Assembly (NCBI GenBank): GCA_963169875.1
Contig: CAUJEL010000176.1
Span: 1-49,619 of the forward strand
Source of the DNA: Candidatus Zhuqueibacterota bacterium
Lineage (GTDB): Bacteria; Zhuqueibacterota; Zhuqueibacteria; Residuimicrobiales; Residuimicrobiaceae
DNA length: 49,619 nucleotides
Reading direction: 5' to 3'
Shown here: positions 24,336-41,771 of the stretch, one piece after another
Position numbering within the stretch: position 1 is the stretch's first letter
Layout of the letters: each line of letters starts with the position of its first letter
Made by a program: the position numbers and the translations under genes
The notes under the pieces: model-generated
What the model saw: the letters and a program-made list of their open reading frames with translations, nothing else
Database searches by the model: none
Told to the model about the DNA's origin: nothing

Positions 24336-24796
24336 GTGTTATCTCTTCTGTTTTGCAGTTACGCTTTTGTGTGAGATAACAGGAAAGGGAGAATAATTAT
24401 TTCAAAATCACCATCCGACAAATTGAATACGCGTGCCAACTCCGGGCCAGGAACAGCGGCCCGGGAGTGCGCAAGCCAGTGCGGAAAAAGCTTTGATGCC
24501 GGTGCAATGCGATAGCATAATTTTTGGATATCGTGTTCCAGGAAACAGGTGATGGTTGTTTTCACGCCTGCCGCGGGACCTAAAAGATGGTTACACCATG
24601 ACAGTTTTGTGCACACCCTCTTTAAACCACAATTATCTCCCTTGCATTGTCCACAGATTACTTTTATATTGGGTGTGAAAATATCAAGTTCCTGAATCCA
24701 GCGGTCAGTGCTGAGACCACCTTGCGAAGGTTATTCATTTTCGCCGGGCTGAAATAATCGCCCGGTTCAGGAAATTCTAACATGGGAGAGGATTAC
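24336..24796. other. 461-bp divergent intergenic region with palindromes
   Basis: Located between the leftward TonB receptor and the rightward thymidylate-synthase-like gene. It holds an imperfect GC-rich stem (ACTCCGGGCC 24439-24448 with GGCCCGGGAGT 24458-24468), a half-copy of the 48571-48965 repeat family at 24551-24604, and the palindrome ACCTTGCGAAGGTT at 24719-24732. I recognise no riboswitch. Confidence 0.4.
24551..24604 (+). repeat. Half-unit of the TGTCATCC-family repeat
   Basis: This stretch matches the second half of the units at 48571-48965, sharing GATGGTTGT, TTCAC, CTGCCGCGG and then CTAAAAGATGGTTACACCAT followed by GACAG. The left arm of the palindrome is absent. It shows that the family is dispersed and not only local to the right end. 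Confidence 0.7.
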
Positions 24797-25651
24797 ATGC
24801 AGGGTCACATACCGGTACTGTTCGTGGAAGGAAGTTGCCTGGCCGAGGCCTGGGAAAAATCGCTGATCAGCGTCTATCAAAACGGCTGCGACGTCAAGAC
24901 CGAATATGACAAAGCCGGCGATCCGCCCAGCAAGGATTGCACCATGACCATTGTGGTGCGCGATCCCGTGGCGGAGCCCATGATTCACCAGGACCTTCCC
25001 GGCGGTCTCGAGGATCTGCAGGAGTACGTCCTCGAAGTCCTCGACGGCATCAAGGATCACTGCGTGCGCGATGCGTCGGCCGGCGCGGAGGACACACGCT
25101 GGGAATACACCTATCATCAGCGCCTCTTCGGCTATACGGTGCCGGGCGTCGCGGAAACCTTCGATCAGATCGAAGGGATCGCGCAGAAACTGGCGAAAAC
25201 GCCGCACACGCGCCGCGCCCAGGCGATCACCTGGAAGGTGTGGGAGGACAACACCTGCTACGACCCCGCCTGTCTGCAGAGCATCTGGTGCCGCCTCATG
25301 CCGGGCGAGGATCAGACCTGGTACCTCAATACCAATGTGCGCTTCCGTTCCAATGACGCCTACAAGGCGGCTTTTATGAACATGTTCGCCCTGGTGCAGC
25401 TGCAACAGCGCATCGCGCAGCGCATCGCCGCGCTCTGCGGCCGCATCGTCCTCCCCGGCCGCTATGTCCATCAGGCCGACAGCTATCATATTTACGGATC
25501 CTATTTTCAGGAATTTCGGGCGAGATTTTTGAACGCTTTGGAGAAACGGACGTTTGCGGAGCGCACCTTCCGCTATGAGGATGTGCGCGCCTATATGGAG
25601 CAGGCCATCCCGGCCATCCAGGCCAAAGCGGCGGCGATGGGCCGGCAATAA
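24797..25651 (+). CDS. Thymidylate synthase-like protein
   Basis: A 284-residue protein resembling the ThyA superfamily, closest in layout to archaeal and uncharacterised members. The nucleophile region reads DPACLQSIWCRL, with Cys where the catalytic Cys of thymidylate synthase (PCH) sits, but Leu instead of the following His. The downstream RSNDAYKAAFMNMFALVQLQ matches the R-S-x-D phosphate-binding segment, and YVHQADSYHIYG matches the dUMP-binding D/S-x-HIY motif. It may methylate or hydroxymethylate a pyrimidine nucleotide. Start: the ATG at 24797 has GGGAGAGG five bases upstream; the ATG at 24782 overlaps that site and is less likely. Confidence 0.72.
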   Translation: MQGHIPVLFVEGSCLAEAWEKSLISVYQNGCDVKTEYDKAGDPPSKDCTMTIVVRDPVAEPMIHQDLPGGLEDLQEYVLEVLDGIKDHCVRDASAGAEDTRWEYTYHQRLFGYTVPGVAETFDQIEGIAQKLAKTPHTRRAQAITWKVWEDNTCYDPACLQSIWCRLMPGEDQTWYLNTNVRFRSNDAYKAAFMNMFALVQLQQRIAQRIAALCGRIVLPGRYVHQADSYHIYGSYFQEFRARFLNALEKRTFAERTFRYEDVRAYMEQAIPAIQAKAAAMGRQ

Positions 25652-26808: not shown

Positions 26809-27480
26809 TTATATGGCTTCTTCGTCGTAAAAGAGATTGACCCGCGACAACCCCGCCACGTTCTTCAACGCGCGCACCAGTTCGTAATGTTTTTGTTCGT
26901 CGCGCAGATCCACATAAAACGAGATCTCGAAGAGATTCTCCTCTTCTGTTTTGACATTGATCAATTTAAAGGTGCGGCAGTACTGCTTGAGGATGGTTTG
27001 ATAGGGCGCTGATTCCGGGGACTCGCTCTCCAGGGTGAACTGCAGCAAAAATTTTCGTCCCAACGGCATGATGGTATCGCTTTTGGCCAGGGCGATCATC
27101 ACAATACCGATGATCATGGTGGCGCCGATGGCAAGTTTATGCATGCCGACACCGGCCGCCATGCCGACGGCGAGGCTGAAAAAGATAAAGATGATATCCG
27201 CGGTATCCTTCACGGCGGTGCGGAAACGGATGATCGACATGGCGCCGACCAGTCCAAAGGCGCGGGCGAGATTGTTGCCGATGACCATGATGACCACCGC
27301 GGTGATCATGGCGAGATAGATCAGGGCATGCACATAACTGACGGAAAACCCCGGGCCGCGATAGGTCACACGGTAGATCCAGGAGATCGCCAGGCCGCAA
27401 AAGAGCGCGAAGGCGAGATTGAAGATCATCTGTTCGAAAGAGATGTTGGTGACGAATATGGTACTGAATTCCTGCATCAT
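26809..27480 (-). CDS. DUF4956 membrane protein (VTC partner)
   Basis: The 223-residue protein has about four membrane helices in its N-terminal 130 residues (IFNLAFALFCGLAISWIYRV, ALIYLAMITAVVIMVIG, DIIFIFFSLAVGMAAGVG, IGATMIIGIVMIALA). Between them is the family signature GLVGAMSIIRFRTAVKDTAD. A soluble alpha/beta domain of about 85 residues follows. DUF4956 genes often neighbour VTC-domain genes in bacteria, as here. I prefer ATG 27480; a GTG 27 bases upstream is in frame. It may form the membrane channel or scaffold for polyphosphate synthesis, which is inference. Confidence 0.85.
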   Translation of the reverse strand: MMQEFSTIFVTNISFEQMIFNLAFALFCGLAISWIYRVTYRGPGFSVSYVHALIYLAMITAVVIMVIGNNLARAFGLVGAMSIIRFRTAVKDTADIIFIFFSLAVGMAAGVGMHKLAIGATMIIGIVMIALAKSDTIMPLGRKFLLQFTLESESPESAPYQTILKQYCRTFKLINVKTEEENLFEISFYVDLRDEQKHYELVRALKNVAGLSRVNLFYDEEAI

Positions 27481-27624
27481 GATTCTGCGTTCTGCCTTCC
27501 TGATCACTGCACGGTGACAATTATATCAATGGAAAATTGGCCAAAGCAGCCGGACGAGCCGCCTGCCCGCCTCATACGATTCCGGTTTATCCGGGCTGGG
27601 TCCTGTACAGGTTCACCGGGTTCA

Positions 27625-28374
27625 TCAACCCATTCTTCTGATGCGCTGCTTTTGCGGTCTGAGTGCGCGCTCCAGCGACAGCGTGTACTTGGAAAACGAG
27701 CGGCGCTGTAACCCGAAATCCGTGAGAATATCCAGCATCCATTCCGGCAAACTGTCATGAAACTTTAACTCAAGGACAAAATGATCCGTGATCAACGGCA
27801 GCAGCGCTTCTTCTTCAAAAAGCGGTTCCATGGTTTGCGTGAGGCGGAAACGGATGTTCTTGTCAAAGGTGATGCGAATCCGGCGGTCGAAGGTGACATA
27901 AAAAGCTTCCCGTTCGTAGGTGACGAGAATGACCGGGCGCATGGCAGCGGAGATCACATGATAAAAAAACTGCCGGGCATCCGCTTTTGCATTTTCGAAT
28001 CCAGGCCCTGTCTGGATATGCTTCTCGATATCACGATTCGCCAGGAGTTCCTGTAAATCGGCCCAGCGCGCCGGCGCCCGGTTCTTGATGATGAAGGCGC
28101 CATATTTCCTCTTGATCTCCAAAAAGACCCTGTTCTCATCCCGGGTGGAGTAATCGTATCCGCGAATGCGGATCTTTTTACGCCGTTCGATGCCGTCCAC
28201 TTTTTCGTGATAATTTCGACTGGTTGCGGTGTCGAAATAGATGCTGCGCACCGTATACTGGTGTTGCGGCCGGATGTGCGCGAAACGGTCCTCTTCGACA
28301 AAGGGATCCAGCCGCTTGCGCAAGGCATCGTGCAGCGTATTGGGCACGAGATATTTGTACTCATATCTGAGCAT
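27625..28374 (-). CDS. VTC-domain polyphosphate polymerase-like protein
   Basis: A 249-residue VTC domain, the triphosphate-tunnel fold that in yeast Vtc4 makes polyphosphate from ATP. Tunnel strands with paired basic and acidic residues are visible: YEYKYLVP, VRSIYFDT, RRKKIRIRGY, VFLEIKRKYG, ILVTYEREAF, TFDRRIRITFD and FVLELKFH. Length is normal for a stand-alone bacterial VTC. It lies 6 bases after the HlyD-type gene and 144 bases before DUF4956, all leftward. SPX domains, which regulate eukaryotic VTC, are absent, so control must be transcriptional or by a partner. Confidence 0.88.
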   Translation of the reverse strand: MLRYEYKYLVPNTLHDALRKRLDPFVEEDRFAHIRPQHQYTVRSIYFDTATSRNYHEKVDGIERRKKIRIRGYDYSTRDENRVFLEIKRKYGAFIIKNRAPARWADLQELLANRDIEKHIQTGPGFENAKADARQFFYHVISAAMRPVILVTYEREAFYVTFDRRIRITFDKNIRFRLTQTMEPLFEEEALLPLITDHFVLELKFHDSLPEWMLDILTDFGLQRRSFSKYTLSLERALRPQKQRIRRMG

Positions 28375-28380
28375 GGCCTC

Positions 28381-29436
28381 TCACTGCAAAAATCGCCGCA
28401 GAAACTGCAATTTGCCCAGAGGCGGGCAGCGGATTTCGCACCGTGCAAAGAGTCCGGGAATCAGGCCGGAGGAGTGCTCTACTTTCGCCACAACCCAGAA
28501 AACCTGTTCGCCGTTCAAAAGCTGCAGCATGGGATTGATCGATACGATGCGGCCGTCGGCAAACGCCATGCGATCGCTGGAGCGGATACGAACCGTGTTG
28601 TCAAGGGATATCAGGGCGCGATCCGTCGCTTTCACCGGCATGGTGATGATGAAAGAGTCCCCTGCAGCGATGGTCACCAGCGTGTCGGAGGCATAATGTT
28701 GCATGCGAATGCCTGAAATCGGCGCCAGCAGCACATAGCCGGCGGCCTTTTTTTTCAGCACCCTGATCTCCTCTTGCAGATTCGCGATCTGCGCGCGGAT
28801 CACATTCACTTCTTCCGGCTTGACGCCGCTCTCGACACTCGCCAGTCTGGCGCGGGCCATGCCGATATTCGACTCATAGACGCGCTGCGTCGCCAGAGCC
28901 AGTTCATATTCCTGAATGGAGACCAGGTTGCGGGCGTGCAAATGTGCGAGACGGTCGGCGATCTTTTTTTGTTCCTCAGCCTCGAGGATGGCTTGTTCGA
29001 CCTGTTGCCGCGCTTCTGCCACCACAGGCGCCTTCTCACCGCTCAGCGCAACTTGCAGCGCGGCTGCGGCAGATGCCAGTTGGCCCTTTTTTTCGGTCAA
29101 CGCCTGAGACAGGTCGGGGGAGTCCAGCAGGGCGATCGTATCTCCCGCGGTAACGGCGGGGGCGTTGAGCACGGCGGAGTGGAGTTGAAAATTCACGGCA
29201 TCGCCGCGCTGCAATTGCGTCACCGTCACCCTCTCCGCCAGGCCCGATTGGTTGTTCCACAAATAAGTCGACAGCTGACCGTCCGAGGCCAGTACCACCG
29301 ACCACGAACGCACCGGGTGCACCCGGCCGATGGTTTTTATGGTACAGGGCATACGAAAAGGCAGAATCACGATCAGCAACAACACCGCAGCGAACAGCGT
29401 AATGCGAAGAAGGGATGTTTTGGCAACCTTGCGCAT
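28381..29436 (-). CDS. HlyD-family membrane-fusion (adaptor) protein
   Basis: A 351-residue adaptor with an N-terminal membrane anchor (about 9-29), a first lipoyl half, a long alpha-helical hairpin (about 115-235, rich in Ala, Glu, Gln: AEARQQVEQAILEAEEQKKI) and a beta-barrel part (YVLLAPISGIRMQHYAS, FIITMPVKATDRALI). Such proteins bridge an inner-membrane pump to an outer-membrane channel, yet no ABC, MFS or RND pump or TolC-like gene is beside it. It is instead the first gene of the VTC/DUF4956 operon. This invites the idea of exporting or positioning polyphosphate or another polymer. Confidence 0.85.
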   Translation of the reverse strand: MRKVAKTSLLRITLFAAVLLLIVILPFRMPCTIKTIGRVHPVRSWSVVLASDGQLSTYLWNNQSGLAERVTVTQLQRGDAVNFQLHSAVLNAPAVTAGDTIALLDSPDLSQALTEKKGQLASAAAALQVALSGEKAPVVAEARQQVEQAILEAEEQKKIADRLAHLHARNLVSIQEYELALATQRVYESNIGMARARLASVESGVKPEEVNVIRAQIANLQEEIRVLKKKAAGYVLLAPISGIRMQHYASDTLVTIAAGDSFIITMPVKATDRALISLDNTVRIRSSDRMAFADGRIVSINPMLQLLNGEQVFWVVAKVEHSSGLIPGLFARCEIRCPPLGKLQFLRRFLQ

Positions 29437-29853: not shown

Positions 29854-31212
29854 TTACGAGTGTTTTTGCCATTTCTCCAGTTTGCTCTGCAGGGTGGTGC
29901 GCGGCAGTTTGAGCAGCCGCGCGGCGGAACTGATATTGTTATTCGCCTGCTCCATGGCCCGGTCGATCAGTTCCTTCTCCCTGGCCAGGATGAGTTCATC
30001 AAAGGAGAGTCCGCCGTCGATCCCTTCTGCCGCGACTGTGCCAGGCACGTGCCTGGCGCGGGTGGAATCCACGGTCGCGGCAAAGTGCAAAAAATCCACA
30101 TCCCGGGGCAGGGCCAAAAATCGCTGCACGATATTCTCCAGTTCGCGCACATTGCCCGGCCAGTCGTAGTGCAGCAGTGTTTCCAGCTGTTGCGGTTTCA
30201 GCCGCGGGGGCGTGTCGCCGTGGTGGTGCTTTTTGATAAAGTAGTCGATGAGGATGGGCAGGTCTTCCTTGCGATCGCGCAGCGGCGGCACGGTCACGGT
30301 GATGATATTCAGCCGGTAGAAGAGATCCTCGCGAAATGTCCCCTTTTGCACCATTTTGTAGAGGTTCACCTTGGTGGCGCAGAGGACGCGGAAATTGACC
30401 TGGAGGGCTTCGCGCGCACCGACCGGTTGCACCTCGCGTTCCTGCAGCACGCGCAACAGTTTCACCTGCAGTTGCAGCGGCAGGTCATCGATGTCATCGA
30501 TGAAGAGGGTGCCGTCGTGGGCGCGTTCGATGTAGCCCTGATGGCGGCGGTGGGCGCCGGTGAAGGCCCCCTTCTCATGACCGAAGAGTTCGCTCTCCAG
30601 GAGTCCTTCCGGCAGTACGGCGCAGTTGACCGGCACGAAGGGACCTTTGCTGCGTTCGCTGAACTGGTGCAGAAACCGCGCGACGAGTTCCTTGCCGGTG
30701 CCGCTCTCCCCCTCGATGAGCACGGTGTGATCGGTGCCGGCCACCGAACGCAGGATGGCCACCAGCTTCTGCATGACCGGCGCATTGCCGATGATCTCGC
30801 GACTCTCGTAGCGGGTGATGCGTTTCTTGAGCTGCTGGTTTTCGCGAATGACGTCGTGGAACTGGGCGATGTTTTTCAACATGCTCAGCAGCTTGTCCGG
30901 TGAAAAGGGCTTTTCCAGATAGTCGTAGGCGCCGAGCTTCAGGGCGTTGACCGCGGTTTCCACGGTGCCGTAGCCGGTGATGACGATGACGGTGCCGTCC
31001 GGGTTGCGCTCCCTGGCGGCTTTGAGAATGTCGAGGCCGCTGGTGTCCGGCAGACGCAGATCAGTGATCACCACCTCAAAGGTTTCCTCCTCGAGCCATT
31101 CGAGCCCTTCGTGCCCCTTCTCGCAGGCCATCACCCGGTAGCCCTCCTTTTTTAGCGTGTCGGAAAGCGTGATGCGCGAGACTTTATCGTCTTCGACCAA
31201 CAGAATTTTCAT
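29854..31212 (-). CDS. NtrC-family sigma-54-dependent response regulator
   Basis: A 452-residue activator. The receiver domain (1-115) has Asp51 as phospho-acceptor (VVITDLRLPD) and Lys101 (YLEKPF). The AAA+ domain (about 138-375) has Walker A GESGTGKE (168-175), the sigma-54 contact loop GAFTGA (215-220), Walker B DGTLFIDDIDDL and the arginine-finger region. The Fis-type helix-turn-helix tail is NNISSAARLLKLPRTTLQSK. It overlaps the histidine kinase gene by the four bases of ATGA. Intact GAFTGA means it should activate sigma-54 promoters; the best local target is at 33793-33807. Confidence 0.95.
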   Translation of the reverse strand: MKILLVEDDKVSRITLSDTLKKEGYRVMACEKGHEGLEWLEEETFEVVITDLRLPDTSGLDILKAARERNPDGTVIVITGYGTVETAVNALKLGAYDYLEKPFSPDKLLSMLKNIAQFHDVIRENQQLKKRITRYESREIIGNAPVMQKLVAILRSVAGTDHTVLIEGESGTGKELVARFLHQFSERSKGPFVPVNCAVLPEGLLESELFGHEKGAFTGAHRRHQGYIERAHDGTLFIDDIDDLPLQLQVKLLRVLQEREVQPVGAREALQVNFRVLCATKVNLYKMVQKGTFREDLFYRLNIITVTVPPLRDRKEDLPILIDYFIKKHHHGDTPPRLKPQQLETLLHYDWPGNVRELENIVQRFLALPRDVDFLHFAATVDSTRARHVPGTVAAEGIDGGLSFDELILAREKELIDRAMEQANNNISSAARLLKLPRTTLQSKLEKWQKHS

Positions 31213-32666
31213 AGACCTCCCTGCAACGGCAGGATGACTTCAAAGGTGGTGCCCTCTCCTTCGCGGCTGGCCGCGGTGATCGTGCCGCCATGGGTTTCCA
31301 CGATGCCCAGGGCGACGGAGAGTCCCAGGCCCGTGCCTTTGCCCTCCTCTTTGGTGCTGAAGAAGGGGTCGAATATCCGGTCAAGATTTTGCTCGGGGAT
31401 GCCGCAACCGCTGTCCGAGACGGAGAGGCATACGGCGTTTGCCCGGACGGATGTGGCGATTTTCAGGACGCCGCCCTCCTCCATGCTGTCAAAGCTGTTG
31501 AGGAGCAGATTCATAATCACCTCCTGAATGAGATGGGTATCCGCCTCGATCGGCGGCAGCCGGTCATCCAGCTTTCGTTCGATGGTGATATCGGCTTTCT
31601 CGAGGCGGTAGGCGAGCAGGGAGAGGACTTTATCGATGGCGTCGTTGAGATCGACGCGGGTGATCTGTTTGGCGTGCTGTCTGGAGAACCCGAGGAGTTT
31701 TTGCACGATCACGGCGATGTGGTCGAGTCCCTCGTTGGCCAGGGCGAGATACGATTTGGTTTGCGCGTGGTTCGCCGGTTCTTTCTCGATGGCGAAGAGA
31801 CAGCTTTTCAGACCCTGCAGGGGGTTGTTGATTTCGTGGGCCACGCCGGAGGCGAGGCGGCCGATGGAGGCGAGCTTTTCGGCGTTGTGGATTTGTCTCT
31901 GGGCATCGATGAGCTGTTTGCGGGAGTGCGCGAGGCGCTGTTTCATCTTTTCAAAATTGGCGAGGAGGACGCCGACTTCATCCTCTTCGGCCTGGATCTC
32001 GACGGGCTGGATGTTCTCGAGATCGAAGCGGTTCATCTCGGCGACGAGCTGGCGCAGCGATTTGGTGAGCCGGTCGATGAGGAAGTAGATGACCGTGAGG
32101 ATGATCAGCGCCGTGATGATGGTAAAAGCCGACAACAGGAAAAACATCTCCTGCAATTTTTTACGCGTCGGTTCGATATCGAATCCGAGGCGCAAGGCGC
32201 CCCACGACCTGCTGTGAATCTGCAGCGGCAGGTTAACTTCGAGAATCCAGCCATGGAGATCGGAGTGGTAGATTTGCATTTCGCCATCCTGCCGGCCGGC
32301 GAGGAGAAAATGGCGCCAGTCGCTGCGGACGGATTCTTTTTCATCATAGCTGCTGCGCACCATGATCTGGCCGCGCTGGTCATGGATGGTGACAAATTTG
32401 ATTTGCGGATTCTTGTTGAGAAAATTGTGAATGTGGTTTTCGACAAAGCCCTCGTTCTGCATCAGGCCGCTCTCCTGATAGATGAGGGCGTCCAGTATCG
32501 AGACGGAAAGCGTCTGCGCCACCGCCAGGGCGTTTTGCCGTTGATTGGAGAGGATGAGAGAGCGCCACTGGAAAAGAACGCTGATGGAAATCAGCACCAT
32601 GAGCAGGGTGATGAGCACTCCGACGTAGACGAGCATGCGGGTTTTCAGACTTTTCAATCTGGTCAT
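31209..32666 (-). CDS. NtrB-like membrane sensor histidine kinase
   Basis: A 485-residue kinase. Two membrane helices (about 11-31 and 176-197) enclose a periplasmic domain of about 145 residues. A HAMP domain (about 198-250) and a HisKA box follow, with the phosphorylated His277 in SGVAHEINNPLQGLK. The catalytic domain has NLLLNSFDSME, DSGCGIPEQN and GTGLGLSVALGIVE. It is encoded between the PhnD-like protein and the NtrC-like regulator, overlapping each by 4 bases. Its periplasmic domain is the likely docking site for the binding protein. Confidence 0.94.
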   Translation of the reverse strand: MTRLKSLKTRMLVYVGVLITLLMVLISISVLFQWRSLILSNQRQNALAVAQTLSVSILDALIYQESGLMQNEGFVENHIHNFLNKNPQIKFVTIHDQRGQIMVRSSYDEKESVRSDWRHFLLAGRQDGEMQIYHSDLHGWILEVNLPLQIHSRSWGALRLGFDIEPTRKKLQEMFFLLSAFTIITALIILTVIYFLIDRLTKSLRQLVAEMNRFDLENIQPVEIQAEEDEVGVLLANFEKMKQRLAHSRKQLIDAQRQIHNAEKLASIGRLASGVAHEINNPLQGLKSCLFAIEKEPANHAQTKSYLALANEGLDHIAVIVQKLLGFSRQHAKQITRVDLNDAIDKVLSLLAYRLEKADITIERKLDDRLPPIEADTHLIQEVIMNLLLNSFDSMEEGGVLKIATSVRANAVCLSVSDSGCGIPEQNLDRIFDPFFSTKEEGKGTGLGLSVALGIVETHGGTITAASREGEGTTFEVILPLQGGL

Positions 32667-33589
32667 GGCACCGCCTCGATGGCGCCGATCTTTTTCTCGA
32701 TGTCATCGTAATCGCGATCATGCGCGGGGGCGAAGCCGAAGGCGAATTCCGGATCCCATGACCGCACTAGGTCACGATATTCTTCCTGATGCACATCGAT
32801 CTGCAGCAGCGCCGTCTGAATGGCACGGGTGATGGTGGTGTCCAGCGACTTTTTCACAATTATGGGGGAACCGGGAATGGGCTCCGAGGCGGCGAGGATG
32901 CGAATCCCCCGGTCGAGGAACTCCTCCGCGACGCGATCCTTGACGACCCCGGCGTCGAAATTGCCGCGCAGGACCTGATAAATGACGGTATGATGAAACC
33001 CGAAATGGTGGAGCGAGTCGAGGTCGCCGGTTTTCAGGCCGTGCTTCTGAAACTCATAGTGAATGACCCAATTGCCCGAGAAGGAGAGCGGGGAAGGGAG
33101 CGCCAGTCTCTTTCCGGCGAGATCGGCGATGGTGGCGATGGGGCTGTCGGAACGGGTGACGATGACGGAATGAAAGTGCGGCTTGAACTGGCTGTTGAGG
33201 GGCTTGAGGATGCACTGGATGGCGTGATCCTTACGGGCCTTGAGGTAGAGAAAGGTGCCGAGGAAGGCCGCCTGAATCTCGTCGCGCTCGATCTGGCTCA
33301 CGGTCTGTTCGTAGGAGCTGCTCAGCTTCAGGGTGAAATGATAGGGCGTGGTGCGGTTGAGATAATCGAGAATCGGCTGATAGCCCTCATAGAGAAGATT
33401 GGGGGAGAATCGCGAAATCACCCCCACGTGGACGGTATCCTGCCCGGACGGCGGCGGCCCCGTCCGGGTTGGCGGCGCGAGGGCCTGCCGCGGCGTGGTG
33501 ATATCCATCATGGAGCGATAGATGAAAATCGTCACCAGAATGCCGACAACGAGCAGGAGCAGCGCCAGGAATAGTCTGCCGGGTTTCAT
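32663..33589 (-). CDS. Membrane-anchored PhnD-like phosphate/phosphonate-binding protein
   Basis: A 308-residue type-II periplasmic binding protein of the PhnD family. The N-terminal hydrophobic segment (about 5-26) lacks a clear cleavage site and probably anchors it. A Pro-rich linker (about 33-50) precedes the binding lobes, with VGVISRFSPNLLYEGYQPIL, DEIQAAFLGTFLYL, GKRLALPSPLSFSGNW and FDAGVVKDRV typical of the family. PhnD proteins usually feed ABC importers for phosphonate, phosphite or phosphate, but no permease or ATPase is nearby. It is first in a tightly overlapping operon with a kinase and an NtrC-like regulator, so sensing is the likely job. Confidence 0.88.
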   Translation of the reverse strand: MKPGRLFLALLLLVVGILVTIFIYRSMMDITTPRQALAPPTRTGPPPSGQDTVHVGVISRFSPNLLYEGYQPILDYLNRTTPYHFTLKLSSSYEQTVSQIERDEIQAAFLGTFLYLKARKDHAIQCILKPLNSQFKPHFHSVIVTRSDSPIATIADLAGKRLALPSPLSFSGNWVIHYEFQKHGLKTGDLDSLHHFGFHHTVIYQVLRGNFDAGVVKDRVAEEFLDRGIRILAASEPIPGSPIIVKKSLDTTITRAIQTALLQIDVHQEEYRDLVRSWDPEFAFGFAPAHDRDYDDIEKKIGAIEAVP

Positions 33590-33849: not shown

Positions 33850-34476
33850 ATGCCCGAGATCAAACCCCGCTTTGAGTTTCGCGCCTTTGCGCAGAATTTC
33901 GGCATCGTCGAAGAGAAGATGCGCCAGTTGAGCGCGGTGGAGCAGATTCGCGAGAGTATGGAAATTTACATCATGTCCGCCGCCAACAACGAGAACAACA
34001 CCAAGATCCGCGACAATCTCATGGACATCAAGGTGTTTGTCCAGGCGCAGAAGGGTCTGGAGCAGTGGAATCCGCGCATGAAGGGGCAGTTCCCGATGAC
34101 GGCGGCGATGATTCGCGACGAGGTCTTTCCCGCCTTTGGCGTCGCGGTGCCGGCGTTCAAACGGGAGGTCTATACGCTGGAGCAGTACATCAACGAGATC
34201 ATCAAGCCGCATCCGGATCTCGCGGCGGTGAATATTTTCAAGCGCCGCACGGGTTTCACCATCAACGGCTGCATCGCCGAGCTGGCGGATGTCTATGTCA
34301 ACGGCGCCCGGATCATGACGGCCAATCTCGAATCTGTGGATGTCGAGGCCATCCTCGCAGCGAAAAAAATGGTCGGCCTCGATGGGTATGAAAATGTCAA
34401 CTATCTGCTCGCCATCAAACGCGTCATCGGCATGGCGCCGATGGCCGAAGATTCGCCGTACCGGGTCAAGTTATAG
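33850..34476 (+). CDS. Uncharacterised protein, first gene of the sigma-54 operon
   Basis: A 208-residue soluble protein with no signal peptide. I chose the ATG at 33850, preceded by AGGAG (33840-33844); an in-frame TTG upstream would lie almost on the transcription start. The N-terminal part is helical (EKMRQLSAVEQIRESMEIYI). The C-terminal 90 residues are a compact alpha/beta segment (FTINGCIAELADVYVNGARI, ENVNYLLAIKRVIG). I do not recognise the family. It precedes a CYTH gene by 13 bases, and the beta-rich C-terminal part could be a distant CYTH-like or phosphatase-associated fold, but nothing in the sequence proves this. It is probably dedicated to phosphate or polyphosphate metabolism by position. 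Confidence 0.8.
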   Translation: MPEIKPRFEFRAFAQNFGIVEEKMRQLSAVEQIRESMEIYIMSAANNENNTKIRDNLMDIKVFVQAQKGLEQWNPRMKGQFPMTAAMIRDEVFPAFGVAVPAFKREVYTLEQYINEIIKPHPDLAAVNIFKRRTGFTINGCIAELADVYVNGARIMTANLESVDVEAILAAKKMVGLDGYENVNYLLAIKRVIGMAPMAEDSPYRVKL

Positions 34477-34489
34477 GAGATTTTGGCGT

Positions 34490-34960
34490 ATGGGAAAAGA
34501 AGTCGAGCGCAAGTTTCTCGTCAAGGGTCCGTTCGCCCATCTGGCGCATAAGAAAACGCGCATTGTGCAGGGTTATCTCTGTTCCGTGCCCGAGCGCACG
34601 GTGCGGGTGCGCATCAAGGGTGACGCAGGGTATCTGACCATCAAGGGCATCGGCAACGCATCCGGCGCCAGCCGTTACGAGTGGGAGCGCGAGATCGGCG
34701 TCGACGAGGCCGAAGAGCTGCTGAAAATCTGCGAGCCGGGCGTCATCGACAAATATCGTTACCAGGTCAGGGCGGGGGAGCACACCTTCGAAGTGGACGA
34801 GTTTCATGGCGACAACGAGGGGTTGATTGTGGCCGAAGTCGAGTTGGCCAATGAGGAGGATGCCTTTGAAAAGCCGCAGTGGCTCGGCGAAGAGGTGACC
34901 GGCGATGTCCGCTACTACAATTCGATGCTGATGAAGACGCCCTATACAACCTGGAAATAG
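34490..34960 (+). CDS. CYTH-domain triphosphate tunnel metalloenzyme
   Basis: A 156-residue single CYTH domain. The diagnostic ExExK motif is at the N-terminus (KEVERKFLV, Glu4, Glu6, Lys8), followed by tunnel strands TVRVRIKG, YLTIKG, RYEWEREI, VIDKYRYQVRAG, TFEVDEFHG and IVAEVELANEED. Bacterial members of this size usually hydrolyse inorganic triphosphate, or sometimes thiamine triphosphate. It shares the tunnel fold with the VTC protein at 27625. The start ATG follows AGGAG (34475-34479), which overlaps the previous stop region, indicating coupled translation. Confidence 0.92.
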   Translation: MGKEVERKFLVKGPFAHLAHKKTRIVQGYLCSVPERTVRVRIKGDAGYLTIKGIGNASGASRYEWEREIGVDEAEELLKICEPGVIDKYRYQVRAGEHTFEVDEFHGDNEGLIVAEVELANEEDAFEKPQWLGEEVTGDVRYYNSMLMKTPYTTWK

Positions 34961-34997
34961 GGCCGGCGAATGATTGGTATCAAACGAGCAGGATGAT

Positions 34998-36593
34998 ATG
35001 AGCGCTTACGATCCTTTGGACATGCACAACTACCGCATCGAGAAACTGCCGAAGCGGGAAAAGTCGCGATTCGAAAAATATCTGGCCTGGTCGGGTCCCT
35101 TTCTGGCGCTGCTGGCCTGGTTGTTGTTTGCGTTCTGGATCAAGCTGCCGTTTTTGCAGGACATCGATGCGGCCAGTCTGGTTTCCAAAGAGGCCAGGGC
35201 CGCCTATGGGGCGCTGGGCGCGGCGGGATTCACGCGCAGCAATGAACTCATGCTCGCTTTTTTTGTGGCGAGTCTGATTCTGTGGATCACCGAGGCGATT
35301 CCCAATTACATGACTTCGCTCATCCTCATCGTCGGACTGGTCCTGAGCGGCGTTTTGACGGATAAAGTGGCCTATGCGCAGCTCGGGCATCCGGTGATGT
35401 GGTTGAACATCATGTCCTTCGTCCTGGCGAGCATGCTGGTGAAAACCGGCGTCGCCAAACGTTTTGCGCTGTGGTTCATCATCCGCTTCGGCAAGAACGC
35501 CGGTTATATCTTTCTCAGCTTCATCGTCATCAATCTGGTTTTATCCGCGTTCATTTCGGCAACGACGGCCAAGGCGGCCATTCTGCTGCCCATCTTCATG
35601 GTGATCGCCGCCATCTATGGCGCGCGCAGCGGCGAGGGGCACACCAATTTCGGCCGCAGCATCGTGCTGCAGAATCTCTTTCAAATCAACATCGGCGCGG
35701 CTTCCTTCATGACCGGATCCGGGGCGAATCTGCTCGCCGTGGCCCTGATCGGCGGCGCCATGGGCGGCAAGATCTTTTTCTCCGACTGGATGATTGCGAT
35801 GCTGCCGATTCAACTGGGCACGATGCTGCTCGGCATGCTGCTGGCGATGCGCCTCTTTTTTCCGCTCAAGCCGGAGGAGCGGCTGCCGCAGGTGGAAGGC
35901 GGCATGGAGCGGCTGCGGCAGGAGTATCAAAAACTCGGACCGCTGGCGTTTCAGGAGATTAAGTCGGTGGTCATCTTTCTCGCCATCCTCGCCTTGTGGG
36001 CGACTGACCGCCTGCACGGCATCGATCCGACCGCGGTGGCTTTTGTCGGGGCGATCATCGCGCTGCTGCCGCGCATCGGGGTGGTCGAGTGGAACGATGT
36101 CGATATTCCCTGGCACCTCATGCTCTTCTCCGCGGGGGCCTACACACTGGGCGCCGGTCTGGCCGTCACCGATCTGCCGTCGCTTTCGGTGAACGCATTG
36201 TTCGACCATCTCGGCATCGGGCAAGGTACGCCCTTCTGGGTGCTCTACCTGCTCCTGACGGGCGTCATGATTTTCAGCGCGCTGCTGTTTCAGTCCAAGA
36301 CCATGCGTACCATGATTTTTGTGCCCATCGCCATCGGTGTGGCGACGCGGTTTGGTTTCAACATTGTCAGCCTGGCGTTGCCGGTGGCGTTCATGATCGA
36401 ACACGTCTATGTGCTGCCCTTCAACAGCAAACCGGCTGCGCTGCTCTATGAGACCGATCGTTACAGTCTCTCGGACGCTTTCAAATTCGGCTTCACCATG
36501 ATGGTGATCGCCTGGGTGTTGATCATGATCGCCGGAGAGACGTGGTTCCGCTATCTGGGCATCACGCCCCAGGGGGTCTTTGGGATATTTTAA
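34998..36593 (+). CDS. DASS/SLC13-family anion transporter
   Basis: A 531-residue inner-membrane protein with about 12 helices and the divalent-anion symporter features: SNELMLAFFVASLILWITEA, the SNT-like SATTAKAAILLPIF, MTGSGANLLAV and FQSKTMRTMIFVPIAIGVAT. Members import dicarboxylates, sulfate or phosphate with sodium, or exchange them. Within this operon phosphate or a phosphorylated anion is the natural guess. A hydrophilic N-terminal tail of about 35 residues precedes the first helix. I start at 34998, since the frame upstream offers only TTG at 34974. Confidence 0.88.
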   Translation: MSAYDPLDMHNYRIEKLPKREKSRFEKYLAWSGPFLALLAWLLFAFWIKLPFLQDIDAASLVSKEARAAYGALGAAGFTRSNELMLAFFVASLILWITEAIPNYMTSLILIVGLVLSGVLTDKVAYAQLGHPVMWLNIMSFVLASMLVKTGVAKRFALWFIIRFGKNAGYIFLSFIVINLVLSAFISATTAKAAILLPIFMVIAAIYGARSGEGHTNFGRSIVLQNLFQINIGAASFMTGSGANLLAVALIGGAMGGKIFFSDWMIAMLPIQLGTMLLGMLLAMRLFFPLKPEERLPQVEGGMERLRQEYQKLGPLAFQEIKSVVIFLAILALWATDRLHGIDPTAVAFVGAIIALLPRIGVVEWNDVDIPWHLMLFSAGAYTLGAGLAVTDLPSLSVNALFDHLGIGQGTPFWVLYLLLTGVMIFSALLFQSKTMRTMIFVPIAIGVATRFGFNIVSLALPVAFMIEHVYVLPFNSKPAALLYETDRYSLSDAFKFGFTMMVIAWVLIMIAGETWFRYLGITPQGVFGIF

Positions 36594-36634
36594 GCGGGAC
36601 TCTGATCCACCACCTAACATCACTGAAGGTTGTT

Positions 36635-37279
36635 ATGACGGTATTATTCAGGAAACACAAACAGCTTGAAGCGCAGATCGACGAGTATCTCGATCTGGTC
36701 GTTCAGGGCGGCTTGCTGTTCAAGCAGGGTGTCAAACTCTATCTCCAGGGGCGGCTGGAGGAGTTTGAGACGCGGTTGCAGCAATTGCAGGAGATGGAAG
36801 AGAAGGGCGACGAACTGCGCCGGCACATCGAAACCAAACTCTATCTGCGCACGTTGATCCCGGAATCGCGGGGTGATGTGCTCGGTTTGCTGGAGAGTTC
36901 GGACAAGGTGCTCAACCGCATCACCGAAACATTGCTGCAGATATCGGTTGAAATCCCCGATATTCCGGATGATCTCGATCCGCTCTACAATGATCTGGCG
37001 GATTATGCCATCTCCACGGTGGAGGGCATGGTCAAGGCCATTCGCGCCTATTTCCGGGACCTGACCTCCGTGCGCGACAATATCAATCAGGTGTTGTTCT
37101 ACTGCAAGGAGACCAACAAAACGGCCGAGAATTTCAAACGGGCTGTGTTCCGTCGTGAGCTGCGTTTGAGCCATAAAATCCATTTGCGCTATTTCGCCTA
37201 TCACGCCGAGCTGATCGCGGAAGAAGCGGAAGATGTCTGCGACCGTCTTTCCATCGCGACCATCAAACGATATATCTGA
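36635..37279 (+). CDS. DUF47 (PhoU-like) phosphate transport regulator
   Basis: A 214-residue all-helical protein of the DUF47/YkaA family, related in fold to PhoU. Family features include EEKGDELRRHIETKLYL near residue 55 and DRITETLLQIS-like VLNRITETLLQIS after it. Such proteins are encoded beside PiT transporters and are needed for, or regulate, them. Here it lies 12 bases before the PiT gene. The ATG at 36635 has GAAGG upstream. Confidence 0.9.
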   Translation: MTVLFRKHKQLEAQIDEYLDLVVQGGLLFKQGVKLYLQGRLEEFETRLQQLQEMEEKGDELRRHIETKLYLRTLIPESRGDVLGLLESSDKVLNRITETLLQISVEIPDIPDDLDPLYNDLADYAISTVEGMVKAIRAYFRDLTSVRDNINQVLFYCKETNKTAENFKRAVFRRELRLSHKIHLRYFAYHAELIAEEAEDVCDRLSIATIKRYI

Positions 37280-37291
37280 GAATAGGGCGCG

Positions 37292-38590
37292 ATGATCTGG
37301 TTTTTCCTCATAAGCGGTCTTTTCCTGGGCTGGTCCCTGGGCGCCAACGATGCCGCCAATGTCTTCGGCACCGCGGTCGGGACGCGCATGGTGCGCTTCA
37401 AGGTAGCGGCGCTGATCTCCAGCGTGTTTGTGATACTCGGTGCGGTGACGGCCGGTTCGGGCACCACCGAGACGCTGGGCGCCCTCGGCGCCGTCGATGC
37501 CATTGCCGGTTCCTTCACGGTGGCCCTGATGGCGGCGATCACGGTCGCCTGGATGACGCGGACGGCGCTGCCGGTCTCCACGACGCAGGCGATCGTGGGC
37601 GCCATCATCGGCTGGGACTGTTTCACGCGATCGCCGATCAATTTTGGCGTGCTGGGCAAGATCGTCGGGTCGTGGATATTTTCACCGGTTCTGGCGGCGC
37701 TGCTGGCCATGGCGCTCTATTTCATTTTCAGATGCTGCCTGGACAAGGCCAAAATCCACATGCTGCGCCTGGATGCCTATACCCGCACCGGCCTGATCGT
37801 GGTCGGCGCTCTGGGCGCTTACAGTCTCGGCGCCAACAACATCGCCAACGTCATGGGCGTTTTTGTGCATGCTTCGCCTTTTGAGACGATCGATGTGTAC
37901 CAGCTCTTTTCGATTTCCGGAACGCAGCAGCTCTTTCTGCTGGGCGGATTGGCCATCGCCGTCGGCATCTACACCTATTCGCATCGCATGATGACGACCG
38001 TCGGCAATGACATCTTCAAGCTCACGCCGGTGCTCGCGCTCATCGTCGTTCTGGCGCAATCGCTGGTGTTGCTGATTTTCGCCTCCAAGAGTCTGCAGGG
38101 CGCCTTGATCGCGATCGGGCTGCCGCCAATCCCCCTGGTGCCGGTTTCCAGCTCCCAGGCGATCATCGGCGCCATCCTCGGGATCGGTCTTGTCAAGGGG
38201 GGCAGGGGACTGAATTACAGGATTTTGATAAAAATCTCCCTGGGATGGATTATCACGCCGGTCATGGCGGCGATGTTGAGCTTTTTCGCCCTCTTTTTTA
38301 TGCAAAACGTGTTCGAACTGGAAGTGATTCAGAAAGAGCCCGCGCATCCCGCTGTGCATCAGATCGAACGCATCGATGCGCCTGATGCGGAGGAAAGCGT
38401 CCGGCATGGCCAGACGGAGAGGAGCCTCGAACGGGCCCTGAACCCGGCCAATCCTGAGGGCGGGCGGCCGCAGAATCAGACGTTTGCCCCGGTGGAGCGG
38501 CGGGCGATGGCGGCGGCCGACAGTACGCACCCGGTTGTGATTGATACGACGGCAATGTCATACCCTGAAAATGAAGCGAATGAACCATAA
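37292..38590 (+). CDS. PiT-family inorganic phosphate transporter
   Basis: A 432-residue transporter with the duplicated PHO-4 signatures: GWSLGANDAANVFGTAVG (14-31) and GAYSLGANNIANVMG, plus LPVSTTQAIVGAIIG and VPVSSSQAIIGAILG. It imports metal-phosphate with protons or sodium. After the last helix (ending near FFMQNVFEL) there is an unusual hydrophilic tail of about 80 residues, rich in Glu, Arg, Pro and Asn; most PiT proteins end shortly after the last helix. The tail could bind DUF47. The order DUF47-PiT is standard. Confidence 0.93.
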   Translation: MIWFFLISGLFLGWSLGANDAANVFGTAVGTRMVRFKVAALISSVFVILGAVTAGSGTTETLGALGAVDAIAGSFTVALMAAITVAWMTRTALPVSTTQAIVGAIIGWDCFTRSPINFGVLGKIVGSWIFSPVLAALLAMALYFIFRCCLDKAKIHMLRLDAYTRTGLIVVGALGAYSLGANNIANVMGVFVHASPFETIDVYQLFSISGTQQLFLLGGLAIAVGIYTYSHRMMTTVGNDIFKLTPVLALIVVLAQSLVLLIFASKSLQGALIAIGLPPIPLVPVSSSQAIIGAILGIGLVKGGRGLNYRILIKISLGWIITPVMAAMLSFFALFFMQNVFELEVIQKEPAHPAVHQIERIDAPDAEESVRHGQTERSLERALNPANPEGGRPQNQTFAPVERRAMAAADSTHPVVIDTTAMSYPENEANEP

Positions 38591-38637
38591 CCGAGCAACC
38601 AACCAACAACGTCCACAAAACTAACAGAGGAGAGGAT

Positions 38638-39933
38638 ATGGACGCAATGAAAGTACAATGGCTTAAAAACGCGGCGACGCTGTGCATCGCGGTGCTGTTC
38701 TTCGCAGGAGAGGCGGGTTTGCTGGCACAGGGAGCCAAGGTGCCGGGCGGCACTTACAAGGTGCCGCTTGGTGCAGAGGTCCGCAATGGCAAGATGGTAT
38801 TTGAGACCGAGGACGGTGACTATCGCTGGTGGTTCGATTCCCGCGTCCAGTTTGACGGCGCCCACTTTTTTGAGAACAAGAACGACATGAGCAGCAGTTT
38901 CGTGTTGCGCCGTGTGACGTTTGCCATGAAGGCGCAACTGGCCAGGGACTGGGAGGCGGAGGTGGACGTCGATTTCGGCGAGGCGACCTACCCGGAAGCC
39001 AACCTCGATGCGCGCGATATGTGGATAAAATACAGCGTGCCCAACAGCGGCTTGTCGTTCATGGTCGGCAATTTCAAGGAGCCCTTCGGCATGGAACGCC
39101 TCAACAGCTCGCGCCTGCTGACCTTCCTGGAGCGTTCGGCGCCCACCAACGCCTTCGCCCTCGGCCGCCGCATCGGCGTCTCCGGGCGCTACTATAACCA
39201 GTACGGCCAGCTCACCCTGGCAGCCATGGGCCACGAGCTCTTCAACCGCGTCGACAAGGGTCAGCGCGATGACGGCATGTCCGGCAACCTCCGCATCAGC
39301 GCCGCGCCCGTCAACCAGCACGGCAAGAACCTGCACATCGGTTTCGGCTACTCTTCGAAAAACCCCGAGACCCTGCCCGATCTGGCCGAGAACACCATCG
39401 AGATCAGGACGAGAACCGAAAATTATATCTTCGATCCCAAGCAGCTCCACACCGGCGACATCAAGGATGTCAATTATTATACGCGCTACAACTATGAGCT
39501 GATGGGCATCAAGGGACCCTTCTACTTTCAGGCTGAGGCTTTCTCCACCGAGATTTTTCGCTGGTACGACAAGCCGGAGATCAACCTGCGCGGCGCCTAT
39601 GCGACCCTGGCCTGGACGCTGACCGGCGAGACCCGCTACTACTACATCGACGAGGGTGAAGTCGGTCCGGTCGAAAAGCCGAAGCACGATTGGGGCGCTC
39701 TGGAAGTGGCGGCGCGCGTCAGCTATACCGATCTCAACGACCTCGGCGCCGGCATTCACGGCGGTTCTTCCAGGCAACTGATGCTCGGCCTCAACTACTA
39801 TCCCAACACCAATATCCGGCTGATGTTCAATTACTCCATCGTCGATCTCGATGAGTATGCCACGCGCAAGGGCAATCTCTTCGGCGATGACGACCATTCT
39901 TTTGTACAAATGAGAATTCAGGCATCCCTGTAA
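38638..39933 (+). CDS. Phosphate-selective porin O/P (OprP/OprO-like)
   Basis: A 431-residue outer-membrane beta-barrel. Signal peptide cut near GLLAQ. The porin O/P pattern is clear: WWFDSRVQFDGAHFF, SFVLRRVTFAMKAQL, DWEAEVDVDFGE, the NLDARDMWIKY and SFMVGNFKEPFGMERLNSS segments, then many alternating strands to a C-terminal MRIQASL. OprP-type porins form trimers selective for phosphate or polyphosphate. It completes an outer-to-inner-membrane phosphate route with the preceding PiT gene. GAGGAGAGG lies just before the ATG. Confidence 0.9.
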   Translation: MDAMKVQWLKNAATLCIAVLFFAGEAGLLAQGAKVPGGTYKVPLGAEVRNGKMVFETEDGDYRWWFDSRVQFDGAHFFENKNDMSSSFVLRRVTFAMKAQLARDWEAEVDVDFGEATYPEANLDARDMWIKYSVPNSGLSFMVGNFKEPFGMERLNSSRLLTFLERSAPTNAFALGRRIGVSGRYYNQYGQLTLAAMGHELFNRVDKGQRDDGMSGNLRISAAPVNQHGKNLHIGFGYSSKNPETLPDLAENTIEIRTRTENYIFDPKQLHTGDIKDVNYYTRYNYELMGIKGPFYFQAEAFSTEIFRWYDKPEINLRGAYATLAWTLTGETRYYYIDEGEVGPVEKPKHDWGALEVAARVSYTDLNDLGAGIHGGSSRQLMLGLNYYPNTNIRLMFNYSIVDLDEYATRKGNLFGDDDHSFVQMRIQASL

Positions 39934-39951
39934 CCCATAGGAGAGTGAAAC

Positions 39952-40875
39952 ATGAAAAATCGCTCATTACTCATCGCGCTGCTGGTTTTCGCCGCCCTGC
40001 TGGTGATCTCCTGCTCGCGCGAAGCCCCGGTCCAACCGCCGCCTCCGCCGCCACCGGTCTATATCTCCCTGAATGAGATCTATTCACGCGGCACAGATGC
40101 GGAACCCGACTGGATTGAACTCTACAACTCTTCCGCCGAAGAGCAGGATGTCAGCGGCTATAAACTCTACGACAGCGGCGGCAAGGAGGGGACAAAGCCC
40201 AAACTGACCCTGCCCGCCGGCACCGTGATTCCCGCTCTCGGGCTGCTGGTGGTGGTCGTGGATGACACCACCGCCGCCGGTTTTGGCCTCTCCAGCGGCG
40301 GTGAAGAGGTCTGGCTGGAGGATGCAACCGGCAAGGTGATCGACAGCGTGGTTTTTCCCGCGCTCGAGGCGACCCAGTCCTACGGAAGGACTTTCGAGGG
40401 AAGCACGGCGTGGAAAGTATGGGATCAGGTCACCCGCGGTCTGGGCAACACCGGCAGCGAGGTGATCGTTCTGCCGGTCAAGATGAACGAGGCCTTCTCG
40501 CGCGGCGTTGAGGGCAATCTCGACTGGGTCGAGATTTACAATCCCTCCAATATCGCCGTCTCCCTGAGCGGTTACCAGATCTATGACACCGGCGGCAAGG
40601 CAGGGACCAAGCCCAAGTTGGTCTTCCCGGCCGGAGCCTCCGCGCCCGCCAAAGGCTTTTACGTCATCACCGTCGATGACACCTCGGCCGCCGGGTTCGG
40701 TCTCTCCAGCGGCGGCGACGAGATCTGGCTCGAGGATCCCGCCAGCGTGCTGATCGATAACATCAAGATTCCGGCCATGCCGGTGGATACGAGTTCCTAT
40801 GCCCGCATCCCCGATGGGGCGGACAACTGGCAGATTACCATGAACGCGACCAAGGGTGCGTCCAATAAACCATAA
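39952..40875 (+). CDS. Lipoprotein with two lamin-tail domains
   Basis: A 307-residue surface or periplasmic lipoprotein. The lipobox is LLVISCS with Cys21 as the acylated residue, followed by a proline run (PPPPPPP). Two lamin-tail (LTD) domains follow, each with SLNEIYSRGTDAEPDWIELYN-type starts (the second is MNEAFSRGVEGNLDWVEIYN) and SSGGEEVWLED / SSGGDEIWLED ends. LTDs are immunoglobulin-like folds often attached to secreted nucleases, phosphatases or adhesins. It lies 18 bases after the porin gene and so probably belongs to the phosphate operon. Confidence 0.85.
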   Translation: MKNRSLLIALLVFAALLVISCSREAPVQPPPPPPPVYISLNEIYSRGTDAEPDWIELYNSSAEEQDVSGYKLYDSGGKEGTKPKLTLPAGTVIPALGLLVVVVDDTTAAGFGLSSGGEEVWLEDATGKVIDSVVFPALEATQSYGRTFEGSTAWKVWDQVTRGLGNTGSEVIVLPVKMNEAFSRGVEGNLDWVEIYNPSNIAVSLSGYQIYDTGGKAGTKPKLVFPAGASAPAKGFYVITVDDTSAAGFGLSSGGDEIWLEDPASVLIDNIKIPAMPVDTSSYARIPDGADNWQITMNATKGASNKP

Positions 40876-40898
40876 TCCATGTATCTTCTTTGCAGTTG

Positions 40899-40930
40899 AT
40901 GGAGACCGTCTCGTGATGAGCGGTCTCCAT
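40899..40930 (+). promoter_or_regulatory. Perfect 10-bp hairpin between two lipoprotein genes
   Basis: ATGGAGACCG (40899-40908) and CGGTCTCCAT (40921-40930) enclose a 12-base loop. No T-run follows, so it is more likely an mRNA-processing or stability element, or a translational control hairpin ten bases before the next start, than a terminator. Confidence 0.5.
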
Positions 40931-40939
40931 TCCTACTAT

Positions 40940-41695
40940 ATGAGCCTTATGAAAAACATCTCTCTATTTGCCTGTATCCTCCTGCTGGCGGCGTGCTCCC
41001 GAAAGGATCCCGTGACCGCCACCCCCGGCGTGGAGGTCACGACCCTGAAGCCCATCGCCTCCATCGATCTGCTGCCCCACATCCCGGAACCCTCAGGGCT
41101 TGCCTACCATCCCGGTCACAATGCCTTGCTGGTGGTCTCGGATGCCAAATCCGATATCTTTGAAATCGGGCTCGATGGCGCCCTGATCCGTACCCTGGCG
41201 ACGACCAGTTCCGATCTGGAAGGGGTTGCCGTTTCCGCAGGCGGCGATACACTCTATGTGGCGGAGGAGCGCAACCAGCTGATCACCCTGTACTCAAGTG
41301 CGGGCGTCCGGCTGCATTCCCTGCCGGTGCGGGTGGCGACGCTGGACAACAACGCCCTGGAAGGCGTCGCCGTCGATCGCCAAAATCACCTCTGGGTGCT
41401 CAATGAGAAGAATCCGCGCCTGCTGCTGCAATTTCATAACGGGCAGGAGGTGAGCCGGGTGGAGATCACCCATGTCAACGATCTGTCCGACATCTGTTGC
41501 GATACGGTGGATGAAAGTTTATGGATTATCAGCGACGAATCGAGAAAGATCATAAAAATCGCCCGCAATGGAAATCTGCTGGGTGAATGGGCGCTTTCCT
41601 TTGACAAGGGAGAGGGTATCGCTTTCGCGGGTGACAAGATGTATGTCGTCAATGATCAGGATGGCAAACTCTATATTTTTTCCAGACCGCAATAA
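40940..41695 (+). CDS. SdiA-regulated/YjiK-like beta-propeller lipoprotein
   Basis: About 251 residues with a lipobox CILLLAACS and a beta-propeller built of repeated D/E-GVA-V units (SDLEGVAVSAGGDTLYVAEE, ALEGVAVDRQNHLWVLNE, LSDICCDTVDESLWIISDE, KGEGIAFAGDKMYVVND). This matches the SdiA-regulated domain family, which is phytase-like in fold. The ATG at 40940 or 40949 is the start; neither has a strong ribosome site. A phytase-like propeller fits the phosphate context, but canonical catalytic residues cannot be confirmed here. Confidence 0.8.
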   Translation: MSLMKNISLFACILLLAACSRKDPVTATPGVEVTTLKPIASIDLLPHIPEPSGLAYHPGHNALLVVSDAKSDIFEIGLDGALIRTLATTSSDLEGVAVSAGGDTLYVAEERNQLITLYSSAGVRLHSLPVRVATLDNNALEGVAVDRQNHLWVLNEKNPRLLLQFHNGQEVSRVEITHVNDLSDICCDTVDESLWIISDESRKIIKIARNGNLLGEWALSFDKGEGIAFAGDKMYVVNDQDGKLYIFSRPQ

Positions 41696-41771
41696 TCAAA
41701 TTTACATGAAATATCCTTGTGCCTTACGACCTGTTTTTGTAAATTGGATCAACATCAAATAGGAGGCGCGT

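Follow-up and report, generated by a model that had tools for sequence, protein, structure and literature searches.

A stretch of DNA from a Candidatus Zhuqueibacterota bacterium raises the question of whether bacteria can synthesise polyphosphate and release it without an ordinary pump, as one operon in it joins a polymerase-type enzyme, a membrane protein and an export adaptor. The cassette is a specific gene set, conserved in several phyla. It is found in many uncultured bacteria and also in isolates (Belliella buryatensis, L126; Natronoflexus pectinivorans, L122; Alkalitalea saponilacus, L119), and with it two questions can be tested: how bacteria deliver polyphosphate to their surface or beyond, and what fuels extracellular kinases. 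The window, i.e. the whole stretch of DNA that was analyzed, is 49,619 nucleotides long, and the genes of the cassette are the following:

28381..29436, minus strand: HlyD-type periplasmic adaptor, 351 aa (NCBIfam, PDB profile search and fold search)
27625..28374, minus strand: VTC-domain protein of the triphosphate-tunnel polyphosphate polymerase family, 249 aa (PF09359, 9e-41; Vtc4, PDB 3g3q, 6e-18)
26809..27507, minus strand: DUF4956 membrane protein, 232 aa as called (PF16316, 1e-15)

An earlier note, made from the letters and their open reading frames, had placed these genes here, and all three frames are present at those positions on the minus strand; the 6-base gap that it gave between HlyD and VTC is likewise what the coordinates yield. 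DUF4956 probably starts at the ATG at 27480 (MMQEF...), which matches the start of its closest relative in the alignment, and the gap between VTC and DUF4956 is thus about 144 bases. No pump gene lies within the operon. Scans for an operon promoter or terminator gave no signal clearly above shuffled sequence. For the stretch from the response-regulator gene to HlyD, a sigma-54 promoter was also considered and rejected, as the consensus scan was empty there and the window-wide count was at chance level. The HlyD-VTC-DUF4956 gene unit is certainly real, and export is the role that we infer for it.

The VTC protein is soluble and consists of the VTC domain alone, with no SPX domain and no membrane part, and its match to PF09359 covers positions 2-231 of 235. 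In the alignment with Vtc4 (numbering offset by 3 relative to the PDB chain), R196, K200, R264, R266, E279, K281, K294, R296, R361, R373, D377, E426, K428, S457 and K458 are all present. Twelve of the Vtc4 tunnel or catalytic residues occur without exception in 103 VTC proteins drawn from all arrangements of the locus, and the remainder are nearly invariant. R264, R266 and E426, which are among those kept in 103/103 proteins, are the positions at which the triple change R264A/R266A/E426N inactivates yeast Vtc4 (PMC9911596). Loss of the basic tunnel residues had been named beforehand as an observation that would speak against the proposed synthesis and export unit; as these residues are kept in the window protein and are invariant or nearly so in the 103 proteins, this objection falls. 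Family and residues together suggest that the VTC protein is a polyphosphate polymerase that makes its chain from ATP. PPK1 was not detected in the genome of the window or in its five family relatives, and the genome has one PPK2. The idea that VTC stands in for PPK1 nonetheless found no support among 60 relatives, where PPK1 is found in 17/34 with VTC vs 6/26 without (Fisher p 0.06). A literature search that covered few subscription papers and preprints returned no report of a tested bacterial VTC protein.

DUF4956 scores above the curated cut-off of PF16316. Its model (pLDDT 75.7) presents five main helices followed by a C-terminal ACT-like domain, and in the fold search this domain matches ACT domains including that of MgtC (2lqj among the hits). 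The ACT-like domain is probably cytosolic, and such a predicted protein fits the membrane part that the earlier note had assigned to DUF4956. Apart from the ACT-like end, profile and fold searches gave no convincing match to solved structures for the membrane part. The most conserved stretch is NNLARAFGLVGAMSIIRFRT, which contains R94 and R96, both invariant among 99 proteins. If the ACT-like domain is cytosolic, the helix count would have this stretch end on a cytosolic loop, and there it could take up a polyanion from VTC.

The same features bring in a different possibility, namely that VTC senses or hydrolyses a phosphate polymer and is no polymerase, and that DUF4956 regulates phosphate or magnesium homeostasis in the manner of MgtC. 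DUF4956 does resemble MgtC weakly (NCBIfam, 5e-9; Pfam MgtC on a relative, 0.006; the ACT-like end), the CYTH relatives of VTC are hydrolases, and the membrane part may have a regulatory role such as that of MgtC, which counts against the export reading. The scores, however, lie below those expected for members of the MgtC/SapB family (36 bits vs a cut-off of 214 in NCBIfam; 17 bits vs 31 in Pfam, for a relative), and DUF4956 differs from that family in its core motif NNLARAFGLVGAMSIIRFRT and in being linked to VTC throughout the loci that were read. As the residues whose change inactivates Vtc4 are invariant and the VTC profile is matched over its full length, we consider a sensor or regulator very improbable.

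The HlyD protein has no Pfam match; it matches the NCBIfam HlyD and RND_mfp models (4e-12 and 3e-8), and a PDB profile search with it returns MacA and EmrA. Its predicted fold matches MacA, EmrA and AcrA (Foldseek, MacA at 1e-14), and VIA-align of the model with MacA gives Z 13.8 over 241 residues with an rmsd of 12.8, this high value being probably due to domain shifts. The model (pLDDT 82.5) has one N-terminal membrane helix, a barrel-sandwich/beta-barrel body and a long alpha-hairpin, so that the anchor, barrel-sandwich, beta-barrel and alpha-hairpin by which HlyD/MFP adaptors are defined are all predicted here. In MacA, AcrA and HlyD, binding to TolC needs an RxxxLxxxxxxS (RLS) motif at the hairpin tip, which reads RLT in HlyD (PMC3391258). 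The window protein has R162, L166 and S173 at these positions, with E176 as a further residue of the motif, and its relatives keep them as well (R in 82/82, L or M in 80/82 and S, T or A in 79/82). Motif and fold thus support an adaptor of the TolC-docking type, in agreement with the periplasmic conduit that had been proposed for it. Genes for TolC-type outer-membrane efflux proteins (OEP) are present elsewhere in the genome of the window, and no TolC-type or other outer-membrane channel gene is linked to a cassette of the window type. In its fold, inner-membrane anchor and RLS motif, the protein resembles the adaptors of MacAB-TolC, EmrAB-TolC, AcrAB-TolC and HlyBD-TolC. Unlike these systems, the cassette has no ABC, RND or MFS pump, and the inner-membrane partner of the adaptor appears to be DUF4956 with VTC.

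The VTC domain is found in 34/60 relatives, and HlyD-VTC-DUF4956 in 16 of the 35 neighbourhoods read (the window included), with outer neighbours that are mostly unrelated. GTDB genomes were then scanned for relatives of DUF4956, and the 80 loci nearest to the query were retained; in 66/80, the three genes share order and strand. This should be considered when referring to these shares, as the choice of the loci nearest to the query biases the HlyD frequencies upward and the shares are uninformative on DUF4956 genes as a whole. After two duplicates were removed, a count of the three genes, adjacent and on the same strand, came to 80 cassettes. Their gaps have medians of a few bases and are mostly below 20 bases. 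By phylum they fall into Bacteroidota (38), Ignavibacteriota (13), Fidelibacterota (5), Calditrichota (3) and Zixiibacteriota (2), the others coming mainly from the class of the window, which makes at least six phyla in all. An arrangement that recurs in 80 cassettes is far beyond chance. HlyD is thus conserved beside VTC in these 80 loci, where the earlier note had counted lack of such conservation against its own reading. The note had also seen HlyD as a striking addition to VTC-DUF4956; in the branch of the window it is no oddity but the usual arrangement. On the VTC tree, the HlyD label changes 5 times vs 22.5 when shuffled, and the pairwise distances of HlyD, VTC and DUF4956 correlate at 0.80 to 0.86 vs at most 0.14 when shuffled. 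Tree and distance data show joint inheritance of the three genes, to which the species tree by itself contributes a part. No fusions among VTC, DUF4956, HlyD and CotH were found in the loci checked.

An adaptor of this kind might simply share the operon while serving an ABC, MFS or RND pump encoded elsewhere, since pumps of these types are the normal partners of the MacA/EmrA/AcrA fold, and orphan adaptors are known. In 80 loci of several phyla, however, the three genes keep their order, lie close together and co-diverge, which argues for a tie to VTC and DUF4956, and no pump recurs near the cassettes. The 80 cassettes have 398 neighbours within four places, and an ABC signature was seen in only two of them; the many-helix neighbours are mostly sodium-solute symporter-like, as judged by eye; a rare pump could escape this count, as ABC proteins were judged by signature and other pumps by helix number. 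Pfam scans of 78 immediate same-strand neighbours revealed no recurrent pump family, with families of a single member partly hidden from such a scan. The absence of a pump gene noted earlier thus holds for the operon, no pump recurs around the 80 cassettes, and we regard an unlinked pump as improbable.

Six loci of the window's class (L053, L054, L056, L057, L058 and L022) present a sister arrangement, in which VTC follows an OEP gene of the TolC type. In the five of these with a longer contig, the OEP is preceded by a HlyD fused to a C-terminal propeller of the DUF6929 type. DUF4956 lies directly before the propeller-fused HlyD in two loci and a few genes upstream in one; the others are truncated at contig ends. 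The L057 order is CotH (with lamin-tail and T9SS domains), DUF4956, HlyD-propeller, OEP, VTC and a lamin-tail protein with a T9SS domain. The propeller-fused HlyD lacks the RLS pattern, yet has its own channel gene in the operon, a likeness to tripartite and type I systems, and no pump is found in this arrangement either. The earlier note had not anticipated a sister locus with a TolC-type channel, which in our view is the strongest hint at export.

In a third arrangement, found in some relatives and on Gram-positive plasmids, VTC-DUF4956 stands with CotH and there is no HlyD. HlyD was not detected in any of the eight loci of monoderm groups (two of Chloroflexota, six on plasmids of Bacillota and Actinomycetota). 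VTC-DUF4956 without HlyD is also found in some diderm loci (L070, L082, L087, L105 and at least ten in the window's class), and HlyD is therefore not always required. L039 (G041:C1:35001-55000), of another family, has VTC-DUF4956 directly after a Porin_O_P gene, with a TolB-like propeller next and DASS and PiT genes nearby. This propeller, a 353-aa protein after DUF4956, had been considered as a hidden HlyD; a 308-aa protein before VTC in Planococcus, considered likewise, has no HlyD match. In L082, L087 and L105, which are of the Caldifarciminota/Stahlbacteria type, a secreted CotH lies upstream of VTC-DUF4956, as does an arylsulfotransferase-like propeller, for which L082 and L105 were tested.

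These arrangements bear on how far the polymer might travel. It might stop in the periplasm without crossing the outer membrane, and HlyD would then scaffold or gate DUF4956; loci without HlyD, some of them in diderms, fit this idea, and so does the lack of an outer-membrane channel linked to cassettes of the window type. As the RLS docking motif is kept in nearly all HlyD proteins and the sister arrangement brings a TolC-type channel, we nonetheless find a route that ends in the periplasm rather unlikely.

The remaining evidence comes from the neighbours of the cassette. CotH is the commonest downstream partner on the same strand: of 39 such neighbours, 12 are CotH, nine have lamin-tail domains and five are SdiA-regulated/phytase-like propellers; upstream, CotH is found in 4/39. 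Where HlyD is present, the propeller-fused one counted, none of 22 CotH loci has a CotH anchored in the inner membrane (two are cut at a contig end), vs seven anchored and four secreted where HlyD is absent (Fisher p about 1e-4, a link that is confounded with lineage and has four exceptions). The anchored proteins, with an N-terminal anchor, belong to VTC-DUF4956 loci L045, L046, L048, L049, L051, L061 and L062. A secreted CotH together with HlyD fits the notion that HlyD extends delivery to the surface.

From these data comes the main rival of the export reading, in which VTC-DUF4956 would supply a CotH-type kinase on site with its phosphoryl donor, be it short polyphosphate or some other energy-rich phosphate, with HlyD lengthening the route when the kinase is secreted and polyphosphate being fuel rather than the end product. 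Both the frequency of CotH beside the cassette and its localisation speak for such a supply, and in Gram-positives, too, VTC and DUF4956 usually come with CotH (PMC7112168). The cassette of the window, on the other hand, has no CotH adjacent to it, though its genome has four, and the localisation link suffers from the confounding and exceptions given above. CotH kinases are known to use ATP, and polyphosphate is not an established donor for protein kinases. We thus hold a supply of phosphoryl donor to surface kinases to be unlikely, if less so than the other alternatives.

The best single reading of these genes remains a unit that both makes and exports polyphosphate or a closely related phosphate polymer. 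We give this reading a probability of about 45%; the earlier note, which had arrived at a similar interpretation, is partly supported. For such a unit, VTC would build the polyphosphate chain from ATP at the cytosolic face, as its family and residues suggest, and DUF4956, in the role of the Vtc membrane helices of yeast, would receive the chain from VTC and pass it across the inner membrane. HlyD, anchored in the inner membrane, would use its RLS tip to dock to a TolC-type channel whose gene lies elsewhere in the genome, a step to which the motif lends support, and may guide the polymer on to the surface. With chain growth itself as the driving force, the absence of a pump would be explained. 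Outside, judging from the neighbours in other genomes, the product may be used by secreted CotH kinases or beta-propeller proteins, or serve as a surface polyanion. In this complete form, a pump-less, envelope-spanning secretion in which chain growth by VTC drives the polymer through DUF4956 and a HlyD-TolC conduit to feed secreted kinases or coat the cell, the proposal is tentative and rather doubtful. If true, polymer synthesis would take the place of a pump in powering this secretion route.

Parts of this scheme have precedents. Polymerisation and membrane passage of polyphosphate have been proposed as coupled in yeast (PMC9911596). With the yeast VTC complex (Vtc1/Vtc3/Vtc4; vacuolar translocation), the cassette has in common a tunnel polymerase of the Vtc4 kind, with R264, R266, E426, K281, R361, K428 and K458, and a putative pairing of this polymerase with a small membrane protein. 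It differs in having no SPX domain, in the added envelope adaptor and in a membrane part that is a separate gene, DUF4956, with no detected likeness to helices of the Vtc1 type. The window VTC may thus work like the eukaryotic complex but, as SPX and Vtc1-type helices are absent, it is not a member. That VTC and DUF4956 form a known neighbourhood, as the earlier note had stated, is borne out by published Gram-positive pel clusters (PMC7112168) and by NELoc-2 of Clostridium perfringens (PMC2879425), where VTC adjoins DUF4956, often with CotH. Those hosts are Gram-positive, however, and no HlyD adaptor or TolC-type channel is reported there. Our literature search, with few subscription papers and preprints covered, found no report of a HlyD- or TolC-linked VTC-DUF4956, and HlyD-VTC-DUF4956 is apparently a widespread, undescribed version of the known neighbourhood.

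The surroundings of the cassette in the window are rich in phosphate-related genes, a setting that we count in favour of the export reading and that the independent VTC-DUF4956 locus L039 shares. Within about 12 kb, the plus strand holds CYTH, a DASS-type transporter, PhoU-like, PiT, Porin_O_P, lamin-tail and SdiA/phytase-like propeller genes, and the minus strand a PhnD-like binding protein, a histidine kinase and an NtrC-type regulator. Two of these had been taken as adding weight to export:

About 5 kb from the cassette, opposite strand: CYTH (PF01928; Pfam)
About 9 kb from the cassette, opposite strand: Porin_O_P (PF07396; Pfam)

Both genes exist and fit a phosphate-rich neighbourhood; as members of the unit they do not stand, being on the other strand, 5-9 kb off and outside the operon. 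They belong to a plus-strand series at 34340-43418: CYTH, DASS, PhoU-like DUF47, PiT (PHO4), Porin_O_P, lamin-tail, SdiA/phytase-like propeller and a lamin-tail protein with a T9SS tail. Propeller and lamin-tail proteins of the same kinds adjoin the cassette in other genomes. The PhnD-like phosph(on)ate-binding protein, the histidine kinase and the NtrC-type regulator come from a tight minus-strand set at 29854-33589, which lies immediately upstream of HlyD-VTC-DUF4956 and is compatible with phosphate sensing. The sensor-kinase and response-regulator genes were considered as a conserved part of the cassette and rejected, as they are absent beside it in relatives. Elsewhere, the window encodes a protein that resembles thymidylate synthase (24782-25651, plus strand; the Pfam match is weak, 1e-8), and an AlbA_2/Schlafen-type protein with a RecG-like C-terminal domain at 4899-6365 on the minus strand.
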